Made by a program: the position numbers and the translations under genes. DNA of 64,000 nucleotides from Desulfobacca sp. (GTDB lineage: Bacteria; Desulfobacterota; Desulfobaccia; Desulfobaccales; Desulfobaccaceae): positions 1 through 64,000 of the forward strand of contig DYEV01000034.1 of assembly GCA_020725545.1 (NCBI GenBank). The letters run 5' to 3'. Of the stretch, positions 35,237-45,485 are shown one piece after another (position 1 is the first letter of the stretch; each line of letters opens with the position of its first letter). Below the pieces are notes generated by a model. It did not search any database, was not told the origin of the DNA, and saw nothing but the letters and a program-made list of their open reading frames with translations.

Positions 35237-35865
35237 CGGGATAGTTCCTCCTCGGCCAGAATGGCCAGGGCATTGAGGGCACTGGCAGCCAGGGCCGAGC
35301 CCCCCTTGGGACCAACCATGGTAATGTAGGGACAGGCGACTGCGCTCAGGGCCTCTTTGGCCTCGGCGGCATCGACAAACCCCACCGGCAGGCCGATGAT
35401 CAGAGCCGGCGGGGCCATGCCCTCTTCCAAAAGAGCCAGGAGCTGGCGCAGGGCCGTGGGCGCGTTGCCGATGGCCACGATACTCCCTGGCAGGTGGGCC
35501 GCAGCCTGCAACACCGCCGCGGCTGAACGGGTTAGACCCCTCTCCCGGGCCAGTGCAGCTGCTCCCGGATTATCCAGGAGACAGGTGACGGGAACGGCCA
35601 AACGCTGCAGGCGGCCGCTCACCCCGGCCAACACCATGCGGGTATCGGTAAAAACCGGCCGCCGTTGTTTTAAGGCCGTGACGCCGGCCGCGAGGGCCTC
35701 CGGATGAAAACGCACGAGCCCGGCCAGTTCCAGATCAGCCACCGCATGGATCATGCGGCGCACCACGGCCCATTGGGACGGCGGCAAGCCGTGCTCCCGG
35801 ACAGCCGCCTCAATGCGCCGAAAACTCTCCTGTTCAATCTCCTGGGGTAACAGGACGGCAGTCAT
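35233..35865 (-). CDS. cbiC: Precorrin-8X / cobalt-precorrin-8 methylmutase
   Basis: The 210-residue CbiC/CobH moves the C11 methyl group to C12. Recognisable parts are RRMIHAVADLELAGLVRFHP with the catalytic histidine (about 40-59), TRMVLAGVSGRL, and the C-terminal LIIGLPVGFVDAAEAKEAL. It overlaps both neighbours by 4 bases (cbiA upstream, cobI downstream). Confidence 0.95.
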   Translation of the reverse strand: MTAVLLPQEIEQESFRRIEAAVREHGLPPSQWAVVRRMIHAVADLELAGLVRFHPEALAAGVTALKQRRPVFTDTRMVLAGVSGRLQRLAVPVTCLLDNPGAAALARERGLTRSAAAVLQAAAHLPGSIVAIGNAPTALRQLLALLEEGMAPPALIIGLPVGFVDAAEAKEALSAVACPYITMVGPKGGSALAASALNALAILAEEELSR

Positions 35866-37247
35866 GGATTCTCCTTATATCTACAACAATAATCAACAAA
35901 ATGGCGGGCCAGCAGGGGATTGCTGCCAAAATGCAGGTGCACGTAACTGGCCAGAGTGCGGTAGCGGCAGTATCCCTCCCGACCGGCGCCGCTGCCGCCA
36001 CGTCCCGCCAATTCGTACGAAGTCGCCAATACCTCGGTGCCGCTGACAATTTCCGAATAGTGGAACTCATGCCCCCGGGCCCGGGTGCCGACCGGCCCCA
36101 GGAGGCCAGGGGCTGTGACGATGATCTCCCGATAGCCCAATGCCTTGAGCCGCGGCAGCATCCGCACCTCCAAGGGCAGCACCCCGGCCAGGGCCAGGCG
36201 CTGGCCGGTCAGCGTCGTCAGTCCTTGGCTCAAATACATGAGGCCGCCGCATTCGGCGTAAATGGGCAGTCCCGCCGCGGCGCGCTCCCGGACGGCGTCC
36301 AGCAGGGTCGTGTTGCCCGCCAATTCCTGGGCAAAGACCTCGGGATAGCCGCCGCCGAAGTAGAGGCCGTCCAGGTTTTCCGGGAGGGCGCTCTCCCGCA
36401 AGGGCGAGAAGGGCACCAGTTGGGCGCCGGCCTGCCGGAGCAGTCGGAAGTTTTCCGGGTAATAGAAACAAAAGGCCTCATCCTGGGCCACTCCGAGGCG
36501 CATCCGGACCGGCGCCGACCTGTCCTCGTGGTCTCGCTCAGCCCTTGCTGGTATGATGGGAAGGACTTCCCACAATGCCTCCAGATCAAGATGGCGCTCC
36601 ACCAGGTCGGCTAATTCCTCCAGATACGCCGGGGTTAAGGGATGCTCCTGGGCCGTCACCAGCCCCAGATGGCGTTCCGGGATGGCCAGAGCCTCCTGGC
36701 GGGGCAGGCCTCCGAAGCAGGGCATGCCCGGTAATTGCGCCAAAGCCTGCTGCAGATACTCCAGGTGTCGGGGGCTGCCCACTTGATTCAAGATAACGCC
36801 AGCCAAAGGCAGATCAGGATCAAAGGTGGCAAAGCCGTGGACCAGAGCCGCCACACTGCGGGCCAGGGACCGGGCCGCCACCACCAGGAGCACGGGCAGA
36901 CCCAGCCACTTGGCCATCTGAGCCGTGGACCCGGCTTCGCTGGCCCCGTCATAGCCGTCGAAGAGGCCCATGACCCCTTCCACCAAAGCCAGGTCCGCAT
37001 CCCGGCAATGACGGCTGCACAGATCCTGGTTGGTCTCCCGGCTCAGCAGCCAACCATCCAAGTTGACTGCAGCACGGCCCGCAGCTTGGGCGAGATGCCC
37101 CGGATCGATGAAGTCAGGCCCCACCTTGAAGGGCTGCACCACCAGACCCCGCCGTTTGAACGCGGCCAGCAGTCCGAGGGCCACGGTGGTTTTGCCCACG
37201 CCGCTGTGCACCCCGGCGATGACCAGACCCCGGCAAGACTTGGTCAC
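35862..37247 (-). CDS. cbiA: Cobyrinate a,c-diamide synthase
   Basis: The 461-residue protein starts at GTG 37247, six bases after GAGG. An N-terminal ATPase-like domain (VIAGVHSGVGKTTVALGLLA) is followed by PFKVGPDFIDPGHLAQAAG. A C-terminal glutaminase domain carries the nucleophile in LPIYAECGGLMYLSQG and the ending GHEFHYSEIV. It amidates the a and c side chains of cobyrinate. It is the first gene of the operon, directly behind the riboswitch and attenuator. Confidence 0.95.
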   Translation of the reverse strand: MTKSCRGLVIAGVHSGVGKTTVALGLLAAFKRRGLVVQPFKVGPDFIDPGHLAQAAGRAAVNLDGWLLSRETNQDLCSRHCRDADLALVEGVMGLFDGYDGASEAGSTAQMAKWLGLPVLLVVAARSLARSVAALVHGFATFDPDLPLAGVILNQVGSPRHLEYLQQALAQLPGMPCFGGLPRQEALAIPERHLGLVTAQEHPLTPAYLEELADLVERHLDLEALWEVLPIIPARAERDHEDRSAPVRMRLGVAQDEAFCFYYPENFRLLRQAGAQLVPFSPLRESALPENLDGLYFGGGYPEVFAQELAGNTTLLDAVRERAAAGLPIYAECGGLMYLSQGLTTLTGQRLALAGVLPLEVRMLPRLKALGYREIIVTAPGLLGPVGTRARGHEFHYSEIVSGTEVLATSYELAGRGGSGAGREGYCRYRTLASYVHLHFGSNPLLARHFVDYCCRYKENP

Positions 37248-37308
37248 TCTAACCTCACGGCAATGCGTATTTGAACTATTTTCATGGCGCTGTGAGATGC
37301 GGTTGGTC

Positions 37309-37343
37309 AAAAAAAATCCTTAAGCCCCCGAAGAGACTTAAGG
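37309..37343 (-). terminator. Attenuator terminator of the cobalamin riboswitch
   Basis: On the minus strand CCTTAAGTCTC pairs with GGGGCTTAAGG around a TTCG tetraloop (an 11-bp stem with two G-U pairs; 37318-37343). It is followed after one A by eight T residues (37309-37316). An upstream GCTTAAGG (37366-37359) can pair with the 5' arm instead, forming an antiterminator. It lies about 60 bases upstream of the cbiA GTG. Confidence 0.9.
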
Positions 37344-37379: not shown

Positions 37380-37580
37380 GGCTTGACCGCGTGCCTCTGG
37401 CCGACAAAGTTGTTGGGCAGGTCTTCTGGCTCCCGGCTCAACCTACTCTCTGCGCCTTCCCGCCCCGCGAGGGGCAGTGGCTCCTGGCAGATTTCGTCCC
37501 CGGTCACAGCGGGGGGTCCGCGACGGCTCAACCGTCTTCCCTTTTAAACCTTCTGGGTACCCATTGCGCATATACTATCG
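37380..37580 (-). promoter_or_regulatory. Cobalamin (B12) riboswitch aptamer
   Basis: On the minus strand, in order: AAAAGGGAAGACGGTTGAGC, a CCGCTGTGACCGGGGACGAA segment, the B12-box region CTGCCAGGAGCCACTGCCCC, CGGGAAGG, and the closing GAGCCGGGAGCCAGAAGACC. These are the conserved blocks of the cobalamin riboswitch, in the right order and about 190 nt long. Placed upstream of cbiA with a terminator after it, adenosylcobalamin binding should favour termination and so lower B12 synthesis (family knowledge). Ends are approximate. Confidence 0.93.
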
Positions 37581-37728
37581 ACGGCAGAGCGCTTTTGTCA
37601 ATGCCCTTTTGCGTTCTATCACAATTTCACATAATCTCATCAAATTCTAACAATTAAGAAGCCTGGATTTAACGATATCTGCTTAATATATTTCGAAAGA
37701 AGACACGCAGAAACCTGGAGGCATAACC

Positions 37729-37932
37729 ATGGAACGAAAAGTTGTTTATCCCGCCGACAAGACCGATGTGGCGAAACTATTAGGAATTTCTGAGGATTTG
37801 GCCTCAGCCTGCCTCGCCAACGGACACATCATCCTCACCGACGACACCCGGCAGACCTTCATCCGCCTGCGGGATCTGTATCAGGTCCTGCGGCAGACCT
37901 CCCGTGGCCGGGGGTTGAAAGCCACCGCTTAG
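37729..37932 (+). CDS. Small protein of unknown function
   Basis: This open frame encodes 67 residues, MERKVVYPADKTDVAKLLGI at the start, with GGAGG 8 bases before the ATG. The middle (VAKLLGISEDLASACLANGH) could be a small helix-turn-helix, followed by a charged C-terminus (RQTSRGRGLKATA). The family is not recognised. It stands alone between the B12 riboswitch, which is transcribed away from it, and the tRNA gene. The good ribosome site and regular codons support a real gene. Confidence 0.6.
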   Translation: MERKVVYPADKTDVAKLLGISEDLASACLANGHIILTDDTRQTFIRLRDLYQVLRQTSRGRGLKATA

Positions 37933-38093
37933 ACCTTTCCTTACTGCATATGCCCTTCCTTAACACGCTCCTTGGCAAGGAAAAGGGAGAGGTTTGCCCT
38001 TGCACGGCCAACCCTAATCCAGTCGTCTTTTCTCCTACTTCCTCCCAAGACTTGACAGCCACCGAAAAAATAGATAAACAATGAACTGACAAA

Positions 38094-38169
38094 GGGGATG
38101 TAGCTCAGCTGGGAGAGCGCTAGCCTCGCATGCTAGAGGCCAGGGGTTCGAATCCCCTCATCTCCACCA
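38094..38169 (+). tRNA. tRNA-Ala (anticodon CGC)
   Basis: Acceptor GGGGATG pairs with CATCTCC (one G-U). D arm GCTCAGCTGGGAGAGC. Anticodon stem CTAGC/GCTAG with loop CTCGCAT, giving anticodon CGC. T arm AGGGGTTCGAATCCCCT. Discriminator A and encoded CCA. All arms are complete. It is followed by a hairpin and an AT-rich segment. Confidence 0.96.
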
Positions 38170-38186
38170 AAAAAGGCAAGTAATTA

Positions 38187-38221
38187 GCGGGAGTTAACAG
38201 GCAGGACCTGTTGACTCCCGC
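38187..38221. other. 15-bp hairpin just downstream of tRNA-Ala
   Basis: GCGGGAGTTAACAGG (38187-38201) pairs with CCTGTTGACTCCCGC (38207-38221) with one G-U, loop CAGGA. There is no clean T-run on the plus strand; on the minus strand a TTTTTT tract lies about 15 bases after it. It may be the tRNA transcript terminator or processing signal. Confidence 0.5.
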
Positions 38222-38400
38222 TTGCTTTGGGGGCCGCCGCCCTCTTTGCCATTTAACTGCCGTTATCCATTGCCATAATGTCATGGTGATATAGATGATT
38301 GAAAAGATGATTCCCGCTGATAGGCTGGAAACGGTCATGCTAAAAATTAACCTGCACCCGAAACTCATAATTTTCCCTTGAATGAAAAAACGGTCAGAAA

Positions 38401-38580
38401 TTACGCTTGATTTGCTACCGCGGCAACCCGCCTGCTCTGCAAATATTTTTCCTGGTTTTGCTCGTCAAACTTAATCCGGCCAGCGATGCGATAATAAGGC
38501 AACTTAGCCTCCCGTATCCAGCGTCGCAAAGTGCTTTCACTTATACTTTGCCGCTCTGCCCCCCCTTTAATGCCGATCAT
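38401..38580 (-). CDS. Excisionase-like small helix-turn-helix DNA-binding protein
   Basis: This 59-residue protein starts at ATG 38580, with AAAGG a few bases upstream. SISESTLRRWIREAKLPYYR (about 12-31) followed by AGRIKFDEQNQEKYLQSRRV is the MerR-like/excisionase HTH seen in Xis-type recombination directionality factors and in helix-turn-helix partners of mobile elements. A longer frame to 38634 starts with TTG and adds no homology. The gene sits about 230 bases from tRNA-Ala in AT-rich DNA, but no integrase is present. It is probably a leftover or a small regulator from a mobile element. Confidence 0.7.
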   Translation of the reverse strand: MIGIKGGAERQSISESTLRRWIREAKLPYYRIAGRIKFDEQNQEKYLQSRRVAAVANQA

Positions 38581-38777
38581 ATTTACCTTTGGAATATTGG
38601 CTAGAAATGACCAACTATCCCCGTAACTTAACAATATGATTAAGAATAAAAATAATTAAATTTATTTCATTGTATCACCCTTACTTAATAAGATCGATAG
38701 CATCATAACACTGATAAAAATTAATGATATAAATCAAAAAAATGCTGGCCTATCATTATCCATCCCGCCTTAAAAAC

Positions 38778-38882
38778 AAAAAACCGAATCGCCCATTTCA
38801 GGCAACCCGGCTTTCTTCCCATCCCTGTCAGACCCGTAGTGTTCCGCTCTACGTCCCTGTCGGCGTCTTTTTATGTAGGTAT
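38778..38882 (-). ncRNA. Putative structured leader or small RNA with intrinsic terminator
   Basis: Reading the minus strand from about 38882: a hairpin with arms GACGTAG and CTACGGGTC (two-base bulge), then GACAGGGATGGG, which repeats GACAGGGA seen before the hairpin. A strong final hairpin follows (CCGGGTTGCC, 38810-38801, with GGGCGATTCGG, 38794-38784), directly followed by TTTTTTGTTTTT. A promoter-like sequence precedes it. Fragments such as GGGAC, ACGGGTCT and AGCCGGGTTGCC resemble parts of GEMM-type (c-di-GMP) riboswitches, but the GGCAAACC block is missing, so I do not claim that class. Confidence 0.5.
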
Positions 38883-38883
38883 T

Positions 38884-38913
38884 ATTCTATCGATATGCAC
38901 ATAAGCCGGTCAA
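38884..38913 (-). promoter_or_regulatory. Sigma-70-type promoter for the structured RNA
   Basis: On the minus strand, TTGACC (38913-38908), an 18-base spacer and TAGAAT (38889-38884). Transcription would begin at about 38878, just before the hairpin unit. Spacing is slightly long but acceptable. Confidence 0.5.
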
Positions 38914-39080
38914 GTATAAACTATTGCAAAGAAACTTGGACTATATCATAATAGTAATTTGAGTATCGTCAAAATAGGCCAGGGAAGCGGTTCGGGTGAT
39001 CAATTTTTTGCTTTTGGCACAACCTCAAGGCATGCCTGTGGTTGGGGGGAGGTTTGAGGGGGAGGAGGCCGGGGGCTGTG

Positions 39081-39130
39081 CTCCCTGGCAGCAGCCCTTA
39101 AAAGCCCTTTTTCAAGAACCTGCCAGGGAG
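39081..39130. other. Perfect 11-bp inverted repeat downstream of HAD phosphatase gene
   Basis: CTCCCTGGCAG (39081-39091) and CTGCCAGGGAG (39120-39130), separated by 28 bases. It lies 31 bases beyond the end of the minus-strand HAD gene and may help terminate it. The rest of 38914-39160 is AT-rich at first, with no supported gene. Confidence 0.4.
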
Positions 39131-39160
39131 GTCCCTTATTCTTGCTGTGCTCTCTGGCCG

Positions 39161-39799
39161 TTAGAGAGAGCCTGGCGGCAGCAGGGCGAAAATCTGTCGA
39201 TGATCATCGATATGGGCCAGGGCCGGCAGCTGGGGGTTTTTATAGGCCACAAAAGGGACCCCAACGGTCGCGGCCAATTGGGCATCGACGTCGGCATCCC
39301 CCACATAGAGGGCCTGGTGGGGCGCCAAGTCAAAGGTGGTCAGAATAATCTGCAGGTAGCCGGGATGGGGTTTGGGAGACTGCACCTGGGCGCTGCTGAC
39401 CGTAAGGTCAAATAATGATTCCAACCGGTGGTGCGCCAAGACCAGGGGCAGGCTCTTGCCCCGATTGGTGGCAATGGCGGTGCGGTAGCGGCGGCGCAAA
39501 GCCACCAGGATCTGACGGACATGCGGCTCCAGACGGATTAGGGGGATGATGCCCTCGTTATCCAATTGTTTCTCATAGGTCCGGGCCGCCGCGGCCAAGG
39601 CGGCATCAGGAAAGAGATGCTCGATGACCTCCCGGGAGGTGCGGGTCTGGATGATCTCCAGGTGTTCGGCCCGGACCGGCCCCATGCCGAAGTGCTGCAG
39701 CAAACGGTTGTAATAGGCCACGTTGGCCTCTAAAGAATCAACCAGCACGCCGTCCAGATCATAGATCACGGCCCGGATGTCTTGGGGGCTTTGTTTCAT
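39161..39799 (-). CDS. HAD-superfamily phosphatase (phosphoglycolate phosphatase-like)
   Basis: The 212-residue haloacid dehalogenase-type hydrolase starts at ATG 39799. Motif I AVIYDLDGVLVDS (about 10-22) holds the nucleophile Asp; motif II is in RTAIATNRGKSLPLVL; motif III/IV regions are SSAQVQSPKPHPGYLQ and ALYVGDADVDAQLA. This layout fits Gph/PGP-like phosphatases or beta-phosphoglucomutase relatives; the substrate is not predictable. Genes around it are unrelated. Confidence 0.87.
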   Translation of the reverse strand: MKQSPQDIRAVIYDLDGVLVDSLEANVAYYNRLLQHFGMGPVRAEHLEIIQTRTSREVIEHLFPDAALAAAARTYEKQLDNEGIIPLIRLEPHVRQILVALRRRYRTAIATNRGKSLPLVLAHHRLESLFDLTVSSAQVQSPKPHPGYLQIILTTFDLAPHQALYVGDADVDAQLAATVGVPFVAYKNPQLPALAHIDDHRQIFALLPPGSL

Positions 39800-39950
39800 A
39801 AAATATTTCTTTTCTGGGACTGCGATTTTCTGCCAAGGGCGCCGGCAGAACAAGCCAATGGGAAAACTTGCAAATTTTTCAAAAAAAATTTATGCTATCA
39901 TTACATTTTCGGCCGGGTAGTTGACGGCCAGACCAAAAGGAGGAAGCATC

Positions 39951-40163
39951 ATGGGAAAAGAACAGGTAGCACGGGTGACGGAAATCATCGCTGAGTCACC
40001 CGTCGGCTTCCGGGAAGCCGTCAACGTCGGCTTTGCCCGGGCCTCCAAGACGCTGCGGGGCATCACCGGCATGCGGGTCGTGGAGCATCGGGTCTCCGTC
40101 AAGGACGGCAAAATCGACACGTATCGGGTCCGGTTGGAAGTTATCTTCATCCTGGATGATTGA
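39951..40163 (+). CDS. Dodecin family flavin-binding protein
   Basis: The 70-residue protein starts at ATG 39951 with AGGAGG upstream. The pattern EIIAESPVGFREAVNVGFAR (about 11-30) followed by TLRGITGMRVVEHRVSVKDG and a final YRVRLEVIFILDD strand is the dodecin fold. Dodecins form hollow dodecamers that store flavins or CoA. It is 8 bases before rtcA, so the two are likely cotranscribed. Confidence 0.9.
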   Translation: MGKEQVARVTEIIAESPVGFREAVNVGFARASKTLRGITGMRVVEHRVSVKDGKIDTYRVRLEVIFILDD

Positions 40164-44507: not shown

Positions 44508-45485
44508 ATGGAGAGACCTGCCAAGTCAGCGCGCAACCTCAGCAAGTTCTGCCAGATGCCATTGAGTCGGCATCTGAGCCAGCGTTTACCCTTCGGGGTT
44601 TCCCAAAGTTTTGTCAGCTTTTTGGGCCACCTCTATTACTGGCGGCATCCGTCGGAGCGGGAGTTGATCTGCCGCACCATCGACCGGGTGTTTCACGGCT
44701 GGCCGCAGCACCGGCGCCGTTTGCTCCACCGCCGCACTTTTCAAGGCATTTATCGCCATTATCAGGAGAAGTTGTTCCTGGCCTACGCCCGTGAGACCAC
44801 GGTCCAAAATTATTTGCACAAACGCCTGGACCTGCGGGGCGGTGTGGAGCTTCTGGCCGCCCTGGGCCAGGGGCGAGGAGTGATCATGGTTACCGGCCAC
44901 TATGGCGCCGTGGAATTCTTGCCGGCTGCCCTGGGACTCCAGGGCTACCCGGCCGCCGTGATTGTCCGCCCCCAGACCCAGGCTTTGGCCGAATCCATGG
45001 CCAAACGGGCGGCTTTGGTCAACCTCACCCTCATCTTTCCAGAAAATGGCAAGGTGCTGCCAGCGGCGCTGCGGGCCTTGCGGGAGGGACGGATCCTCAT
45101 CACCGAGATGGACGAATTCGAAATGTGGCGGGGACAGGGGGATTATACCGTCAATTTCTTGGGATTCTCCCTGCCCGGGGATCGTACCCTGGATGTCTTG
45201 CACAAACGGTCCCAGGCGCCGCTGTTCACGGCCCTGGTTCATCGCCAACCGCAGCGGCGTTACACGGTGGACCTGCAGCCGACCGCGGCGCCGCCACCGG
45301 GGCAAGGGATCGGCAGCCAATGCCTCCGGCGCTTGGCACAAGCCATCTGGTCGGCCCCCGAACAATGGTACCAGTGGAAGGAATTCGGCAAACTGCTCTC
45401 CACCCTGCCGGTCCGGGAGCGGCCCGAACCCAAGATGCTGGAGACCTTGCCGCAAACACAGGTGGCCCAGTTGGTCCATGCCTAA
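44508..45485 (+). CDS. LpxL/HtrB-like lysophospholipid/lipid A acyltransferase, copy 1
   Basis: This 325-residue protein of the lipid A biosynthesis acyltransferase family has the active-site H-x4-E in VTGHYGAVEFLPAAL (about 129-143), then VIVRPQTQALAESMAKRAAL and ILITEMDEFEMW (about 195-206). It has no obvious N-terminal membrane span, but a hydrophobic N-terminal region (QSFVSFLGHLYYW). It should transfer an acyl chain to a lipid. ATG 44508 with GGAGG upstream. It precedes a FabF-like gene by 42 bases. A related gene (50101-51084) shares the order of motifs and the NLSKF start. Confidence 0.85.
   Translation: MERPAKSARNLSKFCQMPLSRHLSQRLPFGVSQSFVSFLGHLYYWRHPSERELICRTIDRVFHGWPQHRRRLLHRRTFQGIYRHYQEKLFLAYARETTVQNYLHKRLDLRGGVELLAALGQGRGVIMVTGHYGAVEFLPAALGLQGYPAAVIVRPQTQALAESMAKRAALVNLTLIFPENGKVLPAALRALREGRILITEMDEFEMWRGQGDYTVNFLGFSLPGDRTLDVLHKRSQAPLFTALVHRQPQRRYTVDLQPTAAPPPGQGIGSQCLRRLAQAIWSAPEQWYQWKEFGKLLSTLPVRERPEPKMLETLPQTQVAQLVHA

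Follow-up and report, generated by a model that had tools for sequence, protein, structure and literature searches.

Some 80 nt between a promoter-like site and an intrinsic terminator, on the minus strand of the window (the whole 64,000-nucleotide stretch of Desulfobacca sp. DNA that was analyzed), read like the latter half of a GEMM aptamer, and share a detectable common descent with c-di-GMP-I (GEMM-I) riboswitches, the origin being a c-di-GMP-I ON switch. The degenerate aptamer (38796–38876, minus strand) has lost helix P2, retains an intact terminator, and has a different neighbor in an insertion-like setting. We consider it probable that this element is a decayed, orphaned riboswitch which yields a short terminated leader.

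A preliminary description of this region had proposed a promoter, a bulged hairpin, a repeated block and a strong terminator, and had left open a new riboswitch. The promoter sequence TTGACC-18-TAGAAT is indeed present at 38913–38884 (minus strand, 10 of 12 consensus matches) and presumably still works; because eight promoter-like sites occur in the region 37600–40000 (2.9, sd 1.5, in shuffles), this motif alone is weak evidence. The terminator with its T tract occupies 38816–38771 (minus strand), comprising a hairpin at 38816–38778 (18 pairs in a scan, 17 in the fold) and the tail TTTTTTGTTTTT; terminator-like sites as such occur at chance level (4 vs 3.6). The segment 38775–38882 of the minus strand folds far better than its shuffles (z −3.94, 0/200 as good), an excess that we attribute to the terminator since the minimum free energy structure contains no P3 pairing. 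An element on the plus strand was rejected, its fold being at chance (z −0.12). The bulged hairpin can be drawn as GACGTAG / CTAC-GG-GTC, yet its stability is only −3.1 kcal/mol and the minimum free energy structure does not contain it. The repeated block, GACAGGGA, is found twice as described (38861–38854 and 38829–38822, minus strand); such repeats are ordinary, a repeated 8-mer occurring in 209 of 1278 100-nt windows of the sequence. The GEMM-like pieces ACGGGTCT and AGCCGGGTTGCC could likewise be located, with GGCAAACC absent, as already stated there.

The Rfam search suggested in that description as a check stayed below gathering. RF03167 (c-di-GMP-I-GGC), the best-scoring Rfam model for the stretch, gave 14.3 bits where gathering requires 59, and RF01051 (c-di-GMP-I) gave 15.6 bits where 35 are required (E about 1–2.4). 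An order-specific model was therefore needed to show the GEMM-I relation. We built this model, R1, from an alignment (A1) of 36 terminator-coupled GEMM-I riboswitches from the same order, drawn from other genera only. Ninety-three matches were taken forward (89 over the cut-off and 4 below it, other weak rows being omitted), of which 37 were kept by a filter that excluded genus copies, classical type members, hybrids and broken copies by rule, and one further match as too short; L225, the aptamer of which equals that of L223, was also removed. A1 supports the structure: 92.5% of its cells are paired and 29 cells show two-sided changes, with 0/500 shuffles as high.

R1 scores the element at 29.5 bits, the best match in the window (E 1e-6; E 4.6e-5 for the genome). 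A second match (17.8 bits, 44938–45001) falls inside a coding ORF at noise level and was dismissed as a riboswitch candidate; such a chance match indicates that the R1 E-values are somewhat optimistic. Together with the low Rfam scores, it is also what could be said for a chance resemblance unrelated to GEMM, a reading that we regard as scarcely credible: the 29.5 bits come from an independent training set, R1 returns no match at E ≤ 0.05 in 8 of the 29 genomes of the order (a GEMM-I match over the cut-off being present in 25 of the 29), and DNA-level matches to two other copies already contradict it. The first of these copies is a bona fide c-di-GMP-I riboswitch (C34:73760–73842, 48.7 bits with Rfam) located 35 kb away, to which the element is 75% identical (E 3.9e-9 to 4.0e-9); the second lies in a genome of the same genus, G003 (78% identity, E 1.6e-11). 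With homology to GEMM-I this clear, the suggested new riboswitch class was rejected.

Alignment under R1 (n = 15) reveals what the aptamer has kept and what it has lost. The element can form 2/4 pairs of P1, 2/2 of P1b, 0/6 of P2 and 9/11 of P3, and retains 28 of 42 near-invariant positions, the lowest number among the 15 aligned. Using Vc2 numbering (mapped via PMC3764141), the equivalents of G20, C21 and C22 lie at 38862–38864, the latter two pairing with G46 and G45, respectively, to form P1b; the equivalents of C44, G45, G46, A47 and A48 are kept at 38842–38846. These eight preserved letters, more than a long-dead element should have, count against the decay reading; if there was decay, it was presumably recent. 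The intervening stretch (38847–38861) replaces the J-loop adenines and P2, such that neither a P2 helix nor its GNRA loop can be found (the loop letters are missing in the alignment), and contains at 38856–38851 the motif GGACGU, common to four copies. The J-loop AAA now reads GAC, two of three adenines being lost, and the places of A23, A25 and A49 read G, C and C. PMC3764141 describes A23, A25, A49 and the GNRA loop as highly conserved, and a GNRA-capped P2 that docks on P3. The letters of G20, A47, A48 and C92 are present, with the assignment of G20 depending on the alignment chosen for the broken 5′ part and C92 placed by hand following the numbering in PMC3764141.

The P3 strands run from 38840 to 38830 (5′ strand) and from 38816 to 38804 (3′ strand, which doubles as part of the terminator 5′ arm). 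Although 9 of 11 P3 pairs are possible, they have a pair probability of 0.00 at −4.0 kcal/mol; the aptamer fold as a whole is worth −3.1 to −4.0 kcal/mol, with P2 and P3 both at a pair probability of 0.00, whereas the 36 relatives average −19.0 kcal/mol (range −24.7 to −9.6). Several canonical members (e.g., L021) likewise have poor folds when taken by themselves, and a low pair probability is therefore no proof of loss on its own. In PMC9262584, Cd1 RNAs carrying A24-26U or C81A are reported to show no binding, making loss of binding in the element plausible.

Despite this erosion of the aptamer side, the element retains the layout of an ON switch: the 5′ arm of the terminator and the 3′ strand of P3 overlap, and a T tract follows. 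This arrangement is shared with the terminator-coupled RF01051 type (36 members), as are the order of promoter, aptamer and terminator, the P3 strands ACGGGTCT and AGCCGGGTTGCC, and the pairs C21–G46 and C22–G45; the element differs in lacking P2 and its GNRA loop, in the J-loop change to GAC and the A49 to C change, in its near-zero aptamer fold, in its scores below Rfam gathering (RF03167, the closest model, included), and in its downstream gene. The Geobacter pilM c-GAMP riboswitch (PMC9262584) is similarly an ON switch with mutually exclusive aptamer and terminator, but has a working aptamer where ours is degenerate. As a side observation, the terminator-coupled type of this order carries C21–G46 where the classical type has G21–C46, the classical members of the order reading GGCAAAC..GACGCAAAG.

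These features can be rationalized as follows. In intact relatives, the aptamer is made first and bound ligand holds P3, keeping its 3′ strand (CCGGGUUGCC) from the terminator 5′ arm; with P3 so held, no terminator forms and the downstream gene is read. In the element, the promoter survives together with most of P3 and the complete terminator, whereas P2 with its GNRA loop, two J-loop adenines and A49 have been lost, leaving an aptamer that can hardly compete with the terminator. Without P2 and the J-loop adenines, termination should prevail regardless of how much ligand is present, and the expected product would be a terminated leader RNA of ~100 nt with little read-through.

A discrete RNA of this size, with a promoter-like site close upstream and a strong terminator, is also what would be predicted for an independent small RNA with its own function, whether of GEMM origin or not. 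We judge that reading very unlikely: a dead or OFF riboswitch gives the same product, no conserved feature was found outside the GEMM-derived parts, and the stretch matched no small-RNA family of Rfam. The preliminary description had set a divergent GEMM relative, a decayed one and an independent small RNA side by side; GEMM-I homology stands, decay is the best supported, and the pieces can be accounted for without invoking a small RNA.

The decayed switch would also be an orphaned one, given the gene that it precedes. The PEP-CTERM kind of gene is absent and its place is taken by an ORF for an HTH_17/excisionase-like protein of 77 aa (38401–38634, minus strand; PF12728 28.7 bits; phrog_66, excisionase and transcriptional regulator), not the kind of gene usually regulated by the family. 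The ORF starts ~145 nt past the terminator, so that the element lies upstream of it. It lacks close relatives in the order, with a match in 5 of the 29 genomes, its own included (best other, 36% identity). Two other genus copies (C34:73760 and G003:2468170) directly precede PEP-CTERM genes. Our survey of downstream genes covered 29 loci, 27 of which gave an ORF (the other two having too little sequence); PEP-CTERM was flagged by pattern in 6 of the 29, the three genus copies included in the survey being among these six, and in two more by eye. The distance from aptamer end to ORF is 162 nt, within the 2–419 nt of the 27 relatives with an ORF, so that control of the excisionase-like ORF by the element is still conceivable.

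Element and ORF lie in a stretch between tRNA-Ala(CGC) and a HAD gene (38170–39178) that is AT-rich around the element and measures ~1.0 kb in the window and only ~0.1 kb (~105 bp) in G001, the nearest relative examined (blastn of the window against the G001 locus, the tRNA being present in both). A search of the inserted stretch for two PEP-CTERM genes gave no trace of a remnant. A duplicated tRNA 3′ end, as a candidate att site, was also sought; allowing up to five mismatches, the window gave no match besides the tRNA. Nearby, an ordinary cobalamin riboswitch (37399–37579, minus strand, 101 bits) lies upstream of a CbiA/CobB-like gene (35862–37310, minus strand).

The GGACGU motif in place of P2 led us to weigh a functional, lineage-specific GEMM-I variant, in which the four copies sense a cyclic dinucleotide and the element controls the excisionase-like ORF via its terminator. 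The motif occurs in this position in four copies; of the 395 genomes searched across the phylum only two have it, and a control read backwards gave none. A second model, R2, scores the four at 98.5–106.9 bits and the next match at 62.9, the four being its own training set. Two of the copies precede PEP-CTERM genes, and GGACGU could itself represent a rebuilt P2. The G003 copy has an intermediate fold (−14.4 kcal/mol) with P1, a 6-pair P2 (loop ACAA, not GNRA) and P3, P1b being lost; the C34:73760 copy has −10.3 kcal/mol on the alignment and, folded free, forms P1, P1b, a short P2 and P3. At 78%, the identity between element and G003 copy exceeds the neutral expectation (0.42 at fourfold sites of one gene compared between the genomes), which indicates that selection acted until recently or still acts.

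Against this, the element itself forms neither P2 nor a stable P3, and the pairing of the GGACGU segment differs from copy to copy. Covariation across four copies is at chance, being matched by 120/500 shuffles for an anti-P3 helix and 500/500 for P3. This anti-P3 helix, with 7/7 pairs in the element and C34:73760 copy and 6/7 in G003, was dropped as a switching device special to the genus, since 28 of the 36 canonical members reach 6/7. Nor is the element closer to the other genus copies (gap-free identity 0.74–0.77) than to the best canonical members (0.83, 71 columns); a subclade with the G003 copy (0.74) was rejected on the same grounds. A functional variant that includes the element is thus unlikely in our estimation, and we consider it rather less likely still that the four copies form a GEMM-I variant peculiar to the genus, in which P2 has been rebuilt and the preferred ligand may differ, and that the element places an excisionase-like regulator beside tRNA-Ala under cyclic-dinucleotide control. 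Such a variant may possibly still work in the other copies; for the element, decay is the better reading. A pattern scan for the variant in genome contigs returned 99 stretches, none a relative by record title and many from one Rokubacteria MAG, which we take as chance; viral contigs gave none in a strict scan and five candidate stretches (L338–L342) in a looser one.

The nearest described system is the c-di-GMP-I/c-AMP-GMP cluster of D. acetoxidans (PMC9481103), which belongs to the same family as the element and probably the same genus. Its copies are ON switches (the mode being predicted) with intrinsic terminators, before PEP-CTERM genes, and aptamers from the cluster bound c-di-GMP or c-AMP-GMP; P1b, P2 and P3 are nearly complete there, whereas the element is without P2. 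In G003, three cobalamin and four c-di-GMP-I matches fall within ~6.5 kb, an arrangement as reported for D. acetoxidans in that text, and at 907011 lies a copy in which an A replaces the G20 of the others, matching the c-AMP-GMP aptamer described there. G003 is therefore most likely this species, and the window would come from a congener. The cluster most likely corresponds to the copies at G003:900580–907086. G003 carries a further divergent GEMM-I-like element (G003:C1:3270590–3270672, minus strand, L269:4001–4083; R1 30.5 bits), and two PEP-CTERM-like genes lie downstream of it.

A second degenerate copy is present in the genome of the element (C22:64316–64402, plus strand, L007:1498–1584; R1 35.2 bits); its terminator is weak, and from there to the contig end no gene follows on the same strand. 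Shortly before it lies a tandem array (L007:1215–1322; period 43, 2.5 copies, palindrome CGCCGATCTCCAGATCGGCG in each unit). In two genomes of the same genus, G001 and G002, neither RF01051 (E ≤ 1) nor R1 (E ≤ 0.05) finds a GEMM-I match, whereas elsewhere in the order a genome can contain as many as 12. The lack of matches in these two genomes and the degenerate state of the C22:64316 copy suggest that the GEMM-I regulon is being lost in this lineage.

A search of the literature on degenerate or pseudo-riboswitches found nothing relevant. Degenerate and lineage-specific GEMM-I copies escape the Rfam thresholds but are recovered by a model specific to the order. Were the variant reading true, it would add a GEMM-I riboswitch whose P2 has been rebuilt and would connect cyclic dinucleotides to a mobile-element regulator. 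The element looks like the remnant of a known riboswitch kind rather than a new one; if decay is indeed its history, it would provide a readable case of riboswitch death, in which the sensing part is lost first, promoter and terminator stay, and a regulated leader is turned into one that is always terminated.
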